NCBI RefSeq assembly: GCF_002887595.1
Contig: NZ_PEBU01000001.1
Coordinates: forward strand, 248,001-312,000
Direction of reading: 5' to 3'
DNA length: 64,000 nt
Source: Bowmanella denitrificans
GTDB lineage: Bacteria; Pseudomonadota; Gammaproteobacteria; Enterobacterales; Alteromonadaceae
A model generated the notes under the pieces. The model searched no databases, was not told the origin of the DNA, and saw only the letters and a program-made list of their open reading frames with translations. Shown piece after piece: positions 14,091 to 20,993 of this stretch (position 1 is its first letter; each line of letters opens with the position of its first letter). The position numbers were made by a program, and so were the translations under genes.

Positions 14091-15008
14091 TTATTCCTGG
14101 GTGGCCAGTTTTTGCTTCATGGCCTTGCGGCTGTTGCGAAAGTGCCGGTAAGAGTCAAAGCTGAACAGTGCCAGACCGGTCCAGACCAGGGCAAAGGTGA
14201 TCAGACGTTCATGATGCAGCGGCTCGTTGTACAAGAACACCGCCAGCACGAACATGATGCTGGGGCCAATATACTGAAAAAAGCCCAGGGTGGAATACAT
14301 AATGCGCCTGGCCGCCGCAGTAAAGCATAACAGTGGCGCGGTGGTAACCAGCCCAGCACAGATCAGAATGGTATTAAGATCCCAGCTATTGTTGAACATA
14401 TTGCTGGCCGGGCTGGCCAGCCAAATCCAATAGGCCATGGCAAAGGGCATCATCAGCAGGGTTTCCAGCATCAGGCCGGGCAGAGAATCTACCGCCACTT
14501 GTTTACGCAGCAGGCCATAGATACCAAAGCTTCCCGCCAGTGCCAGGGCAATCCAGGGAACCTGACCAAAGGACAGCACCAGAATCGCCACACCAGACAA
14601 TGCCAGGGCCACCGCATACTTTTGCAACTTACGCAGGCGTTCCCCCAGAAACAGGCGGCCAAGGGCCACATTCAGCAGCGGGTTGATGTAATACCCCAGA
14701 CTGGCGTCGAGCAAATGATCATTATTGATGGCCCAGATAAATAACAACCAGTTCCCCCCCAACAGCAAACCTGAAATCAACAGCACCTTCATCACTCTGG
14801 GATTGACGATGGCCTGCCTTACTTTAGGCAGTTGCCCTGAAACCAGCACCAGAATCACAAGAACCAACATGGACCAGACAATGCGGTGTAGCAAAATATC
14901 GGTAGCTGGCACGTCCAGCAGCAGTTTGAAATACATGGGGGCAAAGCCCCACATAGTGTAAGCGGCGATGGCAAGGAGCACGCCGGTTTGCGCGGTTCTG
15001 TCGGTCAT
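14091..15008 (-). CDS. rarD: EamA-family transporter RarD
   Basis: A 305-residue inner-membrane protein with ten predicted helices and two EamA repeats. The start GVLLAIAAYTMWGFAPMYFKLL is the RarD signature, and LGYYINPLLNVALGRLFLGERL in the first half is also typical. RarD is named from chloramphenicol sensitivity in Pseudomonas; its physiological substrate is not established. It is convergent with uvrD and divergent from the sortase-target gene. Confidence 0.9.
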   Translation of the reverse strand: MTDRTAQTGVLLAIAAYTMWGFAPMYFKLLLDVPATDILLHRIVWSMLVLVILVLVSGQLPKVRQAIVNPRVMKVLLISGLLLGGNWLLFIWAINNDHLLDASLGYYINPLLNVALGRLFLGERLRKLQKYAVALALSGVAILVLSFGQVPWIALALAGSFGIYGLLRKQVAVDSLPGLMLETLLMMPFAMAYWIWLASPASNMFNNSWDLNTILICAGLVTTAPLLCFTAAARRIMYSTLGFFQYIGPSIMFVLAVFLYNEPLHHERLITFALVWTGLALFSFDSYRHFRNSRKAMKQKLATQE

Positions 15009-15109
15009 GATTGGGCACCCGGGGGAATATTGCGGCTATCTTCGGTGATCAAGCTCGCAATGACAAACAACGAATTTCAGGGACAGCCATTAGCTGTATT
15101 TATTCTACA

Positions 15110-15162
15110 TTGCCAGGCGTTGCCAGAATGTTGTCATAATTGTTCCCGGTATTGCCTTTTTT
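15110..15162 (+). promoter_or_regulatory. Candidate PdsR-binding region upstream of sortase target
   Basis: TTGCCAG at 15110 and 15120, then TTGTCA at 15131, form a direct-repeat ladder with 10-11 base steps. Bases 15131-15162 match bases 42084-42115 upstream of pdsO at 24 of 32 positions without gaps, including an identical GTATTGCCTTT. The element ends 66 bases before the ATG. OmpR-family regulators bind such repeats; assignment to PdsR is inference. Confidence 0.55.
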
Positions 15163-15227
15163 TCGCCCTCTGTCGGCCATTGGTCATTGCTTCAATAAGC
15201 CTGAATTCACCTCATTGGAAACCCGCA

Positions 15228-17201
15228 ATGTATGTTTACCCAATAGGCAGGACAAGCTTACTGATAAGCCTGCTCACTATATTGTGCAGCTACCCGGTAT
15301 GGGCAACGTCTCCTCAACTGGAACTGTTCAACCTTCAGGGCGACGCCGTAGCGCCCGGAATTATCCTTAACACCGATGTGAAGATGCAGACCACAGGCCT
15401 GATTAATCAGGTCAGAGTCACTCAGCGGTATCGCAATGACAACCCCTTTGCGGTCAATGGCCGCTATGTGTTCCCACTACCAGATGACAGTGCCGTGTAT
15501 GCCATGACCTTAGTGGTAGGCGAGCGGCGCATTCAGGGCAAAATAGACAAAAAAGCTGAAGCCACGCGAACCTACCAACAAGCACGCCAAGAAGGCAAAA
15601 AAGCGGCTTTGGTGCGCCAGCAGCGCGCTAATATGTTCGTTACCGACGTGGCGAATATTGAACCGGGCCAGAGCATTTCGGTGGAGTTGCATTATCAACA
15701 AACCCTGGCTTTCGCCGACGGTGAGTTTTCTGTGCGTTTCCCGGTCACCATTACCCCACGTTATCACCCCATGGTGATGAAAATGCCGGATACAGACGAG
15801 CCAGCCAGCGCTGACAATACCGCGCAACCAAGGGGTTGGATAGCACCACTTTTCAGCCAGAGTGCCAAGCCGCAACCAGTCAATGCGGGCCTTACCCTGG
15901 AGTTGGACATGGATTTAGGCCTGGAACTGGCCAAAGTCAGCGCGGGTGAACAACCACTGGCGCTGGACAACCCGGCCTTTGGCCGTTACCGGCTCTCCCT
16001 TACCGACCCACAGATGAACAAAGATTTAGTCCTGCGCTTTACCCCAAGACTAAAGCAGGACAGCCAGGCGGCATTCTTGGTGCAGCAAACCGAACAGGGT
16101 GAACGCTACGCGCTGCTGATGCTGACACCGCCGGCCGACAGCTTTACCGCCGCACGACGTCTGCCGAGAGAAACTATCTTTGTGATTGATACCTCTGGCT
16201 CTATGCATGGCCAGTCAATGCAGCAGGCCAAACAGGCGTTGTTATTTGCCTTAACTCAACTGGATGCCCAGGACAGCTTTAATATCCTGGGCTTCAATCA
16301 CCGGCTCAATCCTCTCAGTATGCGCCCGCTAGAGGCCAATAAAGCCAATCTGCGCATGGCCAGAGACTTTGTCCATAGCCTGGAAGCCGACGGCGGCACT
16401 GAGATAGCCCAGGCCCTGGATGTGGTGCTGGATGGGAGTGAACAAAATGACAGAGTGCGACAAGTGGTGTTTCTGACCGATGGCAGTGTCAGCAATGAAG
16501 CTCAGCTGTTTGAGAAAATCCGCCAGCAACTGGGTGACAGCCGCCTGTTCACTGTAGGTATCGGCAGTGCCCCAAACAGCCTGTTTATGAACAGAGCGGC
16601 GGATGTTGGCCGGGGCTCCTACACTTTTATTGGCGCCACCTTTGAAGTGCAGGAAAAAATGCAGGCATTGTTTAATCGCCTGCATCACCCGGCCATTGTC
16701 AATTTGTCGCTAAGCAGCGGCGGACAGATGTTGACGTATTGGCCCAATCCGCTGCCCGATTTGTATTTTGGTCAGCCCTTAATGGCGGCCATCAAACTGC
16801 CGGATAGTCCGGGTGACATTACCCTTACCGGCCAAACCCCGCTTGGCCCGTTGCATATTGGTTTAACCCCCACCCTGCAAAGCAAAGGAGACAGCATTGC
16901 CAGGCTATGGGCCAGACAAAAAATCAAATCACTGCTGCTGTACAACCCTGAACAGCAGGTTAAATCCAGCGTCGAACAACTGGCCTTGCAGTTTCAATTG
17001 CTGAGCCCCTTCACCGCCTTTGTTGCCGTGGAAACCGTGCCTTCAGGCCAGCCAGCTACGCAGAATATTCAGGTACCCAACGCGCTGCCCGACGCAGGCT
17101 CCTTAACCCTGCCACAAACCGACGGACAAAGCCGTCTGCAATTGCTGCTGGGCATGCTGCTGATACTGAGCTTTGTGGGAGCACGCAGATGGATCCGTTA
17201 A
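15228..17201 (+). CDS. Marine proteobacterial sortase target protein (VIT + vWA, LPxTx anchor)
   Basis: A 657-residue exported protein. Residues 1-26 are a signal peptide. A VIT domain (about 35-165) is followed by a von Willebrand A domain starting at FVIDTSGSM, with the metal-ion-dependent adhesion motif DTSGS at 321-325. The C-terminus is a sorting signal: LPQTD at 628-632, a hydrophobic helix, then the basic end RRWIR. This is the architecture of the single dedicated substrate of class GN sortases. The start ATG at 15228 is chosen because it opens the signal peptide; upstream in-frame codons to 14988 are not protein-like. It overlaps the sortase gene by 13 bases. It was probably recruited for adhesion or surface assembly, but this is not proven for the family. 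Confidence 0.93.
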   Translation: MYVYPIGRTSLLISLLTILCSYPVWATSPQLELFNLQGDAVAPGIILNTDVKMQTTGLINQVRVTQRYRNDNPFAVNGRYVFPLPDDSAVYAMTLVVGERRIQGKIDKKAEATRTYQQARQEGKKAALVRQQRANMFVTDVANIEPGQSISVELHYQQTLAFADGEFSVRFPVTITPRYHPMVMKMPDTDEPASADNTAQPRGWIAPLFSQSAKPQPVNAGLTLELDMDLGLELAKVSAGEQPLALDNPAFGRYRLSLTDPQMNKDLVLRFTPRLKQDSQAAFLVQQTEQGERYALLMLTPPADSFTAARRLPRETIFVIDTSGSMHGQSMQQAKQALLFALTQLDAQDSFNILGFNHRLNPLSMRPLEANKANLRMARDFVHSLEADGGTEIAQALDVVLDGSEQNDRVRQVVFLTDGSVSNEAQLFEKIRQQLGDSRLFTVGIGSAPNSLFMNRAADVGRGSYTFIGATFEVQEKMQALFNRLHHPAIVNLSLSSGGQMLTYWPNPLPDLYFGQPLMAAIKLPDSPGDITLTGQTPLGPLHIGLTPTLQSKGDSIARLWARQKIKSLLLYNPEQQVKSSVEQLALQFQLLSPFTAFVAVETVPSGQPATQNIQVPNALPDAGSLTLPQTDGQSRLQLLLGMLLILSFVGARRWIR

Positions 17202-17782
17202 GCAACTGGCGCTCATTACTCTTTTACTCCTTGCTGGTGTCTGGTCTGGTTCTGTTGGCCACAGGTGGCCATATGCAGGCTAAAGCGTGGCTGGCCCAAT
17301 ACCTGATTAGTGACGCCTGGCAGCAGGCCCTGGCCGAACCAGACAGCAAAGTTAAACCCTGGTTTTATGCCGATACCCATGTCGTCGCGCAGCTGGATTT
17401 TCCGCACCAGCATCAGCGCCTAACGGTGTTGTCGGGTGCCAGTGGCCGCAATCTGGCCTTTGGCCCCGGCCACTTGCTGGCCAGCGGTGAGCTGGGCAAC
17501 AGTGCCGAAAAAGGCGTATTAATTGCCGGGCATAACGACACCCATTTTGCTTTTCTGCAGCACCTGAAAACAGGGGAGCAATTTCGCATGCAACTACAAA
17601 ACGGCACATGGCAGCATTTTCAGGTAAAAGAAATGCGCGTGGTACATCAGGCCGACACCGGCTTTTTACACCACAGCGGACTGTATCTGACCACCTGTTA
17701 CCCTTATGACTCGCTGGCGGCCAATACGCCCTGGCGTTTGCTGGTCACTGCTGAGCAAATCAGTTTGGGGGAAAACAGCTAG
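17189..17782 (+). CDS. Class GN sortase (marine proteobacterial type)
   Basis: A 197-residue membrane-anchored cysteine transpeptidase. An N-terminal helix (about 9-27) anchors it to the inner membrane. The catalytic triad is visible: H115 in IAGHNDTHF, C170 in LTTCYPYD and R183 in TPWRLLV. These sortases usually serve one substrate encoded next door, and here the target gene overlaps by 13 bases. The associated kinase, regulator and OmpA-like protein are not adjacent but lie at 39.1-42.9 kb. The 3' end overlaps the convergent hipA gene by 23 bases. Confidence 0.94.
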   Translation: MDPLSNWRSLLFYSLLVSGLVLLATGGHMQAKAWLAQYLISDAWQQALAEPDSKVKPWFYADTHVVAQLDFPHQHQRLTVLSGASGRNLAFGPGHLLASGELGNSAEKGVLIAGHNDTHFAFLQHLKTGEQFRMQLQNGTWQHFQVKEMRVVHQADTGFLHHSGLYLTTCYPYDSLAANTPWRLLVTAEQISLGENS

Positions 17783-19097
17783 CTGGCTTAAGCAGTAAAC
17801 GATGTTTTCGCTCTTGCATTCCCTCAAAAATGGGTTGTGCTACCCGCTCAGGAAAATCAGCAGGTAATGCCTGTTGAACTTTTTCAATAACGCCATCCAC
17901 TTGCTCGCACATGCGGGATATGATGGCGTCCATTCTGGATTGGCTGAACTCTGCTTGTTTTGCTGTAGCCAGAAAATGTCGTCGAAACATCTGTGAGATT
18001 TTCCATTTTTTGCCACTGCTTCCGCGTAAACTCATCGCGAGCTTCAGATCTCTAAGATTAAGACCTGTGCCGCCAATGGCGGGATAAGCGGAAAGAATGT
18101 CATAAAGCGGCGTCAATCTGTATGCACCGAATGGATCAATACGCACTGAAAAGTTCTTCGCATGTCCATCTGTGGCGCCCAACAAAAAAAACAGTACCTG
18201 TGCGCCCATAAATACGTCGCGATCTCGCACTGCATTGGCTGAGCCTTGCAGATGCTTCATCACATCGGCAATGCAAGGACCTTTATCCGATTCATACTTT
18301 CTGGCCGAGGGCAGGCCGAATACCTGGCAATAATCTTCCTGCGGTAAGCGCATTATCCAACTGCCATCGCTGGCATATTTGCGATCAAAGCGTTCAATCG
18401 CCAATGCTCTGATTTTCTTGGTGTTAATAATTTCACAATTGGGTGCATCAAAACCAAATTCCCGGGCGATGCGTAAACAAAGCATTTCATTTTCGACGCT
18501 GTCGCTTAAATCAATCGTATGGTCGTGGCTTTGAATTTTCCCAATGGGTAGTTTTACTATGTGGGTAGTAGGTGTGTTGCCTGTCGGCACACACCAGTGC
18601 TCGCCAATTTTAAGCAATGCGGTTTTTTCCTGCGCCCCTGCGATGGAAATCCGGAAGTCGTCGTTCTCACGCAACATGCCAAGTGGGGCGCGGGACTGGT
18701 ATCCCAACAGTATGCGCTCCAACGCTTCTTCACTGAGTGTTTGGTAATTTAACTGGCGAATAGTCCCCGGTTTTTTGCCCGCAGGAACAAACTGTAAGGC
18801 ACCCACACTGTCTCGCCCTATTGCCGCTAACAGATCGAACGTTTGACCTGAATCGGCATGGAAACGGGCAACCACACGGTCACGAATCTCGTCATTATCG
18901 GGTAGTAGGTTGTCAAAAAAATTGATGACTTCCTGGCCTTTATAGACCTCACGGCGTAATGGCAACGACAAAGAAATTGGCCGCGCCCCTTCCTGTTCAA
19001 TCCAGGAGTGCTCATAGCGGAATGAATGGGCACCAGCATTATCGCGACCGAAATAACCGACACAATAACCATTCATATACACATCCAGTGTGTTCAT
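17760..19097 (-). CDS. hipA: HipA-type serine/threonine kinase toxin
   Basis: A 445-residue HipA kinase, close to E. coli HipA in length and sequence. Visible elements are the N-subdomain, the DFRISIAGAQEKTAL segment that carries the regulatory autophosphorylated serine, the THIVKLPIG strand, the catalytic GATDGHAKNFSV loop, and the metal-binding TPLYDILSA. E. coli HipA phosphorylates glutamyl-tRNA synthetase and causes persistence. The ATG at 19095-19097 is chosen because GAGG lies 7 bases upstream; the ATG two codons earlier is too close to it. The start overlaps the hipB stop (TAATG). The C-terminal tail PASCFPPN is encoded inside the sortase gene's 3' end, unlike known HipA tails. Confidence 0.95.
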   Translation of the reverse strand: MNTLDVYMNGYCVGYFGRDNAGAHSFRYEHSWIEQEGARPISLSLPLRREVYKGQEVINFFDNLLPDNDEIRDRVVARFHADSGQTFDLLAAIGRDSVGALQFVPAGKKPGTIRQLNYQTLSEEALERILLGYQSRAPLGMLRENDDFRISIAGAQEKTALLKIGEHWCVPTGNTPTTHIVKLPIGKIQSHDHTIDLSDSVENEMLCLRIAREFGFDAPNCEIINTKKIRALAIERFDRKYASDGSWIMRLPQEDYCQVFGLPSARKYESDKGPCIADVMKHLQGSANAVRDRDVFMGAQVLFFLLGATDGHAKNFSVRIDPFGAYRLTPLYDILSAYPAIGGTGLNLRDLKLAMSLRGSSGKKWKISQMFRRHFLATAKQAEFSQSRMDAIISRMCEQVDGVIEKVQQALPADFPERVAQPIFEGMQERKHRLLLKPASCFPPN

Positions 19098-19372
19098 TAC
19101 CATTCCTCAGTCCATGTTTTACCCGCGCCGGAGATATCATCATTCTCTTCAGGTTTGATTGAACCTTTAGGGGTAACGGAGAGTTCCAATTCCAGAGCCG
19201 ACAATAAACGGAACAGCGTATCGAGTTGCATTTTTTCCGGAGAAGATTCAAAACGGGAAACCGTTCCTTGCCTTAACCCAACTAGATCTGCAACCTGAGA
19301 CTGACTGATACCACGGCGTTTGCGCTCGTCCCGCAGATATACCGAGAGTGTTTTCGGATCCGTAACTTTCAT
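19097..19372 (-). CDS. hipB: HipB-type antitoxin / autorepressor
   Basis: A 91-residue protein with an Xre-type helix-turn-helix (GISQSQVADLVGLRQGTVSRFE, shown here only as a motif region near residues 22-43), a dimerising strand ELELSVTPKG and an acidic flexible tail ending TWTEEW, like the tail that docks on HipA. The ATG at 19370-19372 has AAGG 9 bases upstream; an in-frame TTG seven codons earlier lies inside operator 1 and is less likely. HipB binds HipA and represses the operon through the four operators just upstream. Confidence 0.92.
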   Translation of the reverse strand: MKVTDPKTLSVYLRDERKRRGISQSQVADLVGLRQGTVSRFESSPEKMQLDTLFRLLSALELELSVTPKGSIKPEENDDISGAGKTWTEEW

Positions 19373-19383
19373 TGTTCGCTGCC

Positions 19384-19487
19384 TTATACGCAAGTGGGTA
19401 TAAAATACAATTTATACGCAAATGGAGATAAGTCAAATTTTATACGCATTTGAGTATAAAAATAAATTTATACGCATATGCGGATAA
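19384..19487. promoter_or_regulatory. Four HipB operators at 28-bp period
   Basis: Four 20-bp sites start at 19384, 19412, 19440 and 19468, exactly 28 bases apart. Each reads TTATACGC at its left end and ends in ATAA; sites 1 and 3 are perfect TTATAC-N8-GTATAA dyads, while sites 2 and 4 have AGATAA and GGATAA right halves. E. coli HipB sites have the same half-site/8-base-spacer plan (TATCC-N8-GGATA). The promoter of hipBA must lie within or overlap them. Confidence 0.88.
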
Positions 19488-19515: not shown

Positions 19516-20751
19516 TGGAGTGACCAGGGGAAGCCGTCCAACTCCGCCGCCTTTGCACTTCCATTTCGCGCGAACGACTGGAGTGCAGTGGTTCTGCCAT
19601 CGGCGTCGATTAACGACCTCGCGCCAGAAGCCATTGAGATCGCGCGCGAGAACTTTATTCAAAAGAATCCCAAGCTGGCAAATGAAGCCAAACAGTGAGA
19701 TGTCGCGACATTCTTGAACAAAGCAAAGCTTATTGTTAATGGTCAGATCACCCGCACAGCGATTTTGTTGTTGGGCAAAGCGGAAGCGTCTCACTTTCTT
19801 AACCCGGCTTCGGCAACCGTCACCTGGATTCTTAAAGACAGAGACGGGCTAGAGCGAGACTACCAGCATTTTGGCTGTGAGCGTAGATGAGGTTTTTCAT
19901 AAGGTGCGGAACCTAAAGTACCGCTATATGAAAGAAGGCACACTGTTCCCGGAGGAAGTGGATCAATACGACCCATACATCATACGTGAAGCCCTCAATA
20001 ATGCCATTGCCCATCAGGATTACGAGCTGGGCGGTAAGGTCTCGGTGGTTGAGTTTGGGGATGGTCATTTGTGCTTCAGCAACTTGGGACAGTTTATTCC
20101 CGGCTCGGTAGAATCTGTTATAAAAGCCGGTGCTCCTGAGAGCCGTTACCGCAATCGTTTTCTAACCGATGCTATGGTCAATTTGAACATGATTGATACC
20201 ATTGGCAGCGCATTCGCAAGATGTTCCTCATTCAAAAGAAACGTTACTTCCCTCTGCCGGAATACGAGCTAAAGAATAATCGCGTTCAAGTCACCATCAT
20301 TGGTCGAGTCGCAGATATAGCCTACGCCAGAAAGCTGGCCGAATACCCAGACCTGACATTGGAACACATTCTGTTGCTGGATCGGGTACAAAAACCTAAA
20401 CCACTCACGGATGGTCAGGCCAAACACCTCAAGGCTCTTAGACTGATCGAAGGCCGTAAGCCTAACTATCATATTCCAGCGCAACTGGCGGATCATAGTG
20501 GAGACAGGGCCCAATATATTCGTAACAGAGCCTTTGATGACCATCACTACAAACAACTTATTGTCGAATATTTGGACAAATTCGGTACAGCAAGACCTGT
20601 AGACATTGACGGGCTACTTTTAGACAAATTGCCTGATGTATTGGACGCCCCCCAGAAACACCACAAGATCAAAAATCTGTAACAAGCCCTGAAAAAAGAG
20701 GGCTGGATTGAGAGCGAAGGTAAGATTTGGAGAATGTCCAGCAAGCAATAG
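19516..20751 (+). pseudogene. Decayed AlbA-type putative ATP-binding/transcriptional regulator protein
   Basis: Remnant of a protein of the family with an N-terminal Schlafen AlbA_2 domain and a GHKL-like middle. The N-terminal domain is missing. Homologous text runs in one frame to a TGA at 19696-19698 (where related proteins have Trp, before DVATFLNKAKL), continues to about 19868, shifts frame, runs through YDPYIIREALNNAIAHQDYE, then loses one G near 20212 (GSGIRKMFL becomes unreadable), continues with FLIQKKRYFPLPEYEL, and hits a TAA at 20680-20682 before its natural end at 20751. At least two nonsense changes and two frameshifts make function very unlikely. It may mark an old accessory insertion next to hipBA. 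Confidence 0.85.
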
Positions 20752-20918: not shown

Positions 20919-20993
20919 TGGCGCTCTCGATAGGGATCGAACCTATAACTTGGCCTCCGGAGGGCCACGTGATATCCATTTCACCACGAGAGC
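20919..20993 (-). tRNA. tRNA-Arg (anticodon CCG)
   Basis: Read on the minus strand, a 75-base cloverleaf can be folded: acceptor GCTCTCG with CGAGAGC, a D arm with GTG/CAC, an anticodon stem TGGCC/GGCCA with loop CTCCGGA (anticodon CCG), variable loop AGTT, and T arm ATAGG-TTCGATC-CCTAT. The discriminator is G and the CCA end is encoded (plus-strand 20919-20921). It reads the CGG codon. Its 3' end faces the hipBA/pseudogene patch, the side on which integrating elements usually sit. Confidence 0.93.

Follow-up and report, generated by a model that had tools for sequence, protein, structure and literature searches.

Introduction

The hipBA module is the founding persistence locus, and a copy of it is found in the window (i.e., the whole 64-kb stretch of DNA analyzed in this work). 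Directly 5′ of this minus-strand, E. coli-type hipBA operon, four 20-bp inverted repeats follow one another with a step of 28, 28, and 28 bp (Table 1). The preliminary description of this DNA had reported four near-identical 20-bp sites with an exact 28-bp step, and this was confirmed for all four starts. The idea that such a regular array is special to this locus has instead to be abandoned, since 27 or 28 bp is the usual period among the loci sampled and the 28-bp step is present in both E. coli operator pairs. The reading that we favor, with a probability of roughly 0.8, is that the region is the autoregulatory DNA of a standard E. coli-type hipBA operon, in which repression would be cooperative, contacts between neighboring complexes would set the spacing, and an Arg/Gly pair in HipB would account for the TATAC half-site.

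Table 1. Coordinates of the hipBA genes, candidate operators, and promoter-like hexamers (positions in the window; operator sequences read in the hipB direction).
Feature	Position	Strand	Sequence or domain match	Remarks
Operator 1 (gene-proximal)	19384..19403	-	TTATACCCACTTGCGTATAA	start at -31 from the hipB ATG
Operator 2	19412..19431	-	TTATCTCCATTTGCGTATAA	start at -59; between the -35-like and -10-like elements
Operator 3	19440..19459	-	TTATACTCAAATGCGTATAA	start at -87
Operator 4 (distal)	19468..19487	-	TTATCCGCATATGCGTATAA	start at -115
-35-like hexamer	19431..19436	-	TTGACT	last base is the first base of operator 2
-10-like hexamer	19409..19414	-	TAAATT	overlaps operator 2 at its end; weak, consensus match only
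hipB (antitoxin/repressor)	19097..19372	-	HTH_3, 6.6e-10	91 aa; ATG start
hipA (toxin kinase)	17760..19103	-	Couple_hipA, 1e-28; HipA_C, 8.1e-50	447 aa

The hipBA Locus and Its Surroundings

The window HipA matches E. coli HipA (2wiu_A) at 7.5e-144 across residues 6-427 and carries the N-terminal Couple_hipA and the C-terminal HipA_C domains in a single 447-aa chain, whereas in HipBST systems HipA is split into HipS and HipT. At the positions corresponding to E. coli S150, D309, N314, and D332, which we take to be the kinase/autophosphorylation residues, the same amino acids are found, and so they are at those corresponding to G22, D88, and D291; position 86, which varies across relatives, is Thr (Pro in E. 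coli). A gene encoding a small Cro-like HTH antitoxin is present just 5′ of hipA; the two genes overlap by 7 nt, and the hipB ATG lies 11 bp past operator 1. The solved structures nearest to the window HipB are those of E. coli HipB, and its score against the NCBIfam HipB equivalog model is 55.2 bits, below a cut-off (79) that is an annotation threshold and no functional test; according to this model, the window HipB does not count as an equivalog. Its C-terminal residue is Trp, as in E. coli HipB, a Trp described as universally conserved in HipB (PMC3376134). In E. coli, HipA is reported to phosphorylate glutamyl-tRNA synthetase and Lon to degrade HipB (PMC3376134, PMC7180214, PMC6581861).

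As for the neighboring DNA, a class GN (marine) sortase gene (TIGR03784; 17189-17782, plus strand) is convergent with the 3′ end of hipA, which it overlaps at 17760-17782, and is preceded by a large ORF (14988-17201, plus strand). Upstream of the array, the region 19520-20750 (plus strand) holds short ORF pieces, one of them with a sub-threshold HATPase_c_4 match, and a tRNA-Arg(CCG) gene stands beyond them at 20919-20993; the pieces may be what is left of a tRNA-adjacent island gene. The same genome harbors, on contig C22, a second and distant HTH-HipA pair (locus L083, 490-2085), for whose upstream region the best period, a weak one, was 30 bp.

Structure of the Operator Array

The mismatches to TTATAC-N8-GTATAA are 0, 2, 0, and 1 in operators 1 to 4, and all of them are confined to the distal half, the gene-proximal half being TGCGTATAA (in the hipB direction) in 4/4 operators. 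The earlier picture of two perfect and two degenerate sites agrees with these counts, but one invariant and one variable half per site is the better description. At up to two mismatches, the pattern occurs six times in the 64-kb window versus a mean of 1.23 and a maximum of 5 in shuffled sequences (n = 100). A scan of the whole window that assumes no sequence (three inverted repeats at equal distances, with a period of 18-45, palindrome scores summing to at least 13, and a total score of at least 43) returned 14 overlapping matches, every one inside the array. Both perfect matches of the genome (5.48 Mb) belong to this array, as do three of the eight genomic places with at most one mismatch. 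The genomic matches at up to two mismatches are 130, fewer than those of a reversed-pattern control (325), and a wider HipB regulon is unsupported by this comparison.

E. coli HipB is reported to bind cooperatively four TATCCN8GGATA sites with a DNA bend of 70 degrees, HipA acting as co-repressor (PMC3920265). Like the window, E. coli K-12 has, upstream of hipB, four inverted repeats (O1-O4) whose halves are separated by an 8-base spacer; they start at -135, -107, -68, and -40 from hipB, which gives 28-39-28 instead of the 28-28-28 of the window. The exact E. coli consensus matches 0/4 window operators, whose main half-site is TATAC; this difference from TATCC and the 8-base spacer common to both had already been pointed out in the preliminary description and are borne out. 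The E. coli half-site goes with Lys38 and Ala40 in HipB, whereas the window HipB has Arg and Gly at these positions. Likeness is also found in Idiomarina, Aliidiomarina, Pseudidiomarina, and Alkalimonas (loci L001-L006 in our numbering) and in a locus of the same family as the window (L084), with 28-bp chains of four to five, mostly TTATAC-type, sites. The operators of L084 and L006 lie at the same positions as in the window (-115, -87, -59, and -31); the differences from the window are point differences, a fifth site in L003, and, in L005, a base 4 other than T in the majority of the half-sites.

The promoter-like hexamers show 9/12 consensus matches and a 16-nt spacer. Since operator 2 is abutted by the -35-like element and overlapped at its end by the -10-like one, occupancy would be expected to block RNA polymerase. 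This register is shared: TTGA stands 4-6 bases ahead of an operator start in 54/87 loci with at least three sites and in at most two loci at each other offset from -14 to +20. Of the 83 loci with a match in a two-hexamer promoter search, 48 had the -35 at -5 or -6, 16 at -1, and 19 elsewhere, and no such promoter was found in 4/87 loci; in L084, the nearest relative of the window, the best match lies elsewhere. In E. coli, TTGACT begins at offset -5 from the operator that is second from the gene, and the window has the same offset at the same operator. Judging from their place, their conservation, their register with respect to the -35-like hexamer, and the way in which the half-site co-varies with the recognition helix of HipB, the four sites look like HipB operators and are treated here as candidates.

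Spacing of the Sites among Relatives

A first set of 103 loci comprised the best 80 of at least 584 confirmed collection loci, E. coli K-12, the window, and 21 loci found in near genomes (22/98 of these, the window's own counted, have a HipA match with an E value of 1e-60 or lower); the removal of three exact copies left 100. The 220 bp upstream of hipB were searched for three sites, with no sequence or period assumed. The best period was 28 in 48 loci, 27 in 44, and another value in 8. A period of 27 or 28 bp was thus found in 92/100 upstream regions versus 35/500 shuffles, 7/100 stretches inside hipA, and 7/91 far upstream. The median score was 49 and that of the top shuffle 42; all 75 loci scoring above 42 have a period of 27 or 28 bp. 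The other 25, which do not exceed the best shuffle and are individually weak, include 17 at 27 or 28 bp and 8 at other values; E. coli is among them because its 39-bp gap breaks the chain. The sample is made up of the nearest relatives of the window HipA (down to about 41% identity), and the 27/28-bp rule is therefore demonstrated in that branch alone.

A second set, for which the method was fixed beforehand, came from a class-wide draw (HipA in 31/369 genomes, own counted), an order-wide draw (60/394, own counted), and by-region loci; G400, with a partial HipA match, was left out. Two of the 77 loci, in which no hipB ORF was found, and 10 near-copies (at least 95/100 bases) were removed, leaving 65. 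These loci are new, with a taxonomy that overlaps that of the first set. The period was 27 in 24 and 28 in 34 (58/65), with another value in 7; among the 46/65 above the top shuffle of the first set it was 27 or 28 in 46/46, and the remaining 19/65 scored no higher than that shuffle.

As a check on more distant HipA, 10 plasmid loci were hand-picked among the 40 listed. The three closer to E. coli HipA (L119, L120, and L124; 61, 43, and 47% identity) gave best periods of 28, 28, and 27, the score of L119 being just 40, below the top first-set shuffle (42). A locus of 40% identity gave 26, and four others were weak (scores 28-37) with mixed periods. The distant hipBA of an Arcobacter plasmid (L118) and of a Pseudomonas plasmid (L123) scored best, in the three-site search, at a period of 50 bp. 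An extension of the 27/28-bp rule to distant HipA was rejected on the periods of 26, 50, and 50 and the weak, mixed ones among these 10 loci.

The single spacings were read in a 28-bp group of 49 loci, namely those with period 28 and a score of at least 40, minus L047 and plus the hand-added E. coli, L037, L041, L048, and L090. Sites were called with a template of the TTANNC type, in which bases 4 and 5 of the half-site may be any base, and were kept when a neighbor stood 27-29 bp away, isolated sites being uncounted. Four sites were called in 30 loci, three in 13, five in 3, two in 2, and none in 1. The spacings (n = 130) were 28 in 122 cases, 27 in 3, and longer in 5 (35, 38, 39, 40, and 52 bp), and the five long gaps correspond to all five rows of one HipA clade, with E. 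coli and Raoultella (support 99). In the second set, where neighbors at 26-30 bp were allowed, the spacing was 28 in 74 and 27 in 27 of 111 cases; gaps of 37, 39, and 40 bp were found in three further K38/A40 loci, whereas L188 and L192, with gaps of 48 and 95 bp, have chains that are apparently mis-called.

On a HipA tree of 98 rows, built by a quick method and with four enteric rows hand-labelled 28, the 28 label required six changes and the 27 label nine when unlabelled rows were counted (0/500 shuffles as low for each), and three changes were enough for the labelled rows alone. The period does vary: some clades have 27 throughout, some chains mix 27 and 28, and those of E. coli and its kin are interrupted by one long gap. 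Across L001-L104, the 27- and 28-bp classes are largely clade-specific, and Aeromonas has mixed 27/27/28 chains. The window falls in an eight-row HipA clade (support 99) labelled 28 in 8/8. Relatives keep the sites in the comparison of hipBA upstream regions that the preliminary description had proposed: 28-bp chains occur in 8/8 loci of this clade. We infer that the uniform 28-bp step is the older state and that the long-gap arrangement of E. coli is derived.

Half-Sites and HipB Recognition Residues

In E. coli HipB, the DNA is contacted by residues around K38, Q39, A40, and S43. In the first set, A, S, or G at residue 40 goes with T, not C, at half-site base 4 in 28/29 loci and D at residue 40 with C in 17/18, so that 45/47 loci fit, one of the 48 (N at 40) being left out. 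The second set gave 23/23 for A/S/G and 18/18 for D (41/41); a usable array was present in 51/65 of its loci, 10 of which, with other residues at 40, were not counted. For residue 38, the base concerned is base 5. K38 goes with C in 22/22 untied loci of the first set (one tie) and in 18/20 of the second (one A, one tie), and R38 with A in 14/19 untied loci of the first set (six ties) and in 12/25 of the second (six C, seven ties). Among the R38 exceptions of the second set, 10/13 have D40, with one half TTACAC and the other half often not; in the remaining ones (L143, L147, and L148), residue 40 is a different one. In the R38/G40 group of the window, base 5 is mostly A in 8/8 loci and base 4 mostly T in 7/8 (L005 being the exception). 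The two K/D loci, one in each set (L030 and L174), have TTACCC, as predicted by the two rules combined. The pattern amounts to one to three independent pairs on the HipA tree, and kinship could explain part of it. On the strength of this co-variation, the presence of TATAC instead of TATCC might be due to Arg/Gly in the window HipB versus Lys38/Ala40 in E. coli.

The greater likeness of the proximal halves was also followed beyond the window. In 48 loci of the 28-bp group, the proximal half is the more alike in 30 versus 16, with 2 ties (p 0.054). When both sets are divided by HipB residues, the corresponding figures are 5 versus 3 with one tie for R38/G40 (n = 9) and 17 versus 18 with five ties for K38 (n = 40). 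In the R38/D40 loci (Shewanella, Providencia, and kin, with L007 and L053), the proximal half is mostly GCGTGTAA and is the more alike in 28/31, with one opposite and two ties.

Discussion

According to the reading that we favor, HipB dimers would occupy the four inverted repeats, as HipB does in E. coli, and adjacent HipB or HipB2-HipA2 complexes would bind cooperatively, the 28-bp center-to-center step being kept by the contact of adjacent complexes in one geometry. By simple arithmetic, a step of 28 bp makes about 2.67 turns of B-DNA, so that each complex would be rotated by about 120 degrees with respect to the previous one, and operators 1 and 4, 84 bp or 8 turns apart, would be in phase again. 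A HipA-HipA contact between complexes has been published for E. coli (PMC7180214, PMC6581861); the N-terminal subdomain of HipA is reported to dimerize on DNA binding, a dimerization that the G22S change is believed to weaken (PMC6581861, PMC7180214, PMC7029023).

The equal period and the near-identical sites might also be the by-product of a 28-bp unit recently duplicated in tandem, the spacing not being under selection. Two loci (L047 and L120) do resemble near-exact 28-bp tandem copies and the linkers of L167 are alike. Over 74 loci, however, 8-bp linkers taken from one locus resemble each other no more closely (0.34) than those taken from different loci (0.35), which disfavors a recent duplication, and loci with unrelated half-sites share the period, which is clustered along the HipA tree; we consider this explanation highly improbable. 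The likeness of the operators over the same loci is 0.72, a value raised by the calling template. It seems that linker length is kept while linker sequence is free, i.e., that selection acts on the spacing. An attribution of the sites to another regulator or to a DNA-mobility function, instead of HipB, is more improbable still, since the half-site tracks the recognition residues of HipB, the arrays adjoin hipB in most loci sampled, and the two perfect sites of the genome are at hipBA. As a separate observation, the near-exact tandem copies of L047, two of which are followed by TTGACT, lie upstream of hipB in a MAG labelled Thermosynechococcus, a label that may be a binning error.

A different matter is which of the two proteins sets the step. 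HipB alone might do so, through DNA bending and HipB-HipB proximity that would be cooperative at 28 bp, with HipA merely stabilizing the assembly. E. coli HipB does bind its operators cooperatively and bend DNA, as also described in PMC3376134 besides PMC3920265, and the 8-bp linkers bring the sites near enough for effects that are direct or mediated by DNA; on the other hand, the higher-order contact that has been published is the HipA-HipA one, and the period becomes 50 bp in the two distant HipA loci and the gaps 53 bp in the Legionella HipBST (PMC10653801). HipB and HipA change together in these 50/53-bp systems, which therefore do not separate the roles of the two proteins. On the whole, spacing set by HipB alone appears unlikely, even though it is the most serious of the alternatives, and we retain cooperative autorepression with contacts between neighboring complexes as the preferred explanation.

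Evenly spaced operators have been described in other systems. The Legionella HipBST operators precede their operon and are evenly spaced like those of the window, but they are three, with 53-bp gaps and a split HipA (PMC10653801). In Caulobacter crescentus, the inverted repeats upstream of hipBA1 and hipBA2 have already been described in print as a series whose intervals fit the E. coli HipA-HipB-promoter structure (PMC7029023), a description that states no period. The 27/28-bp rule and the residue-38/40 pattern were not found stated in the portion of the HipB/hipBA operator literature consulted, which did not extend to the main structure papers.

A broader view can be put forward tentatively, and we regard it as somewhat less probable than its opposite: HipB-HipA might generally form an open-ended, regular nucleoprotein array with a 28-bp step (27 in other clades) and about 120 degrees per step, of which the E. 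coli pairs would be a derived exception and the crystallized two-operator unit a fragment, the code of HipB residues 38 and 40 letting operator and repressor drift together with the step intact.

The regularity of the array hints at the way in which neighboring protein complexes touch each other. If the spacing is indeed conserved with free linkers, then the geometry of neighboring HipB-HipA complexes would have been selected across many bacteria; the proposed HipA-HipA contact would become testable by shifting operators, and the 39-bp middle gap of E. coli would stand out as unusual. The residue-to-base pattern, in turn, would let HipB operators be predicted from sequence.
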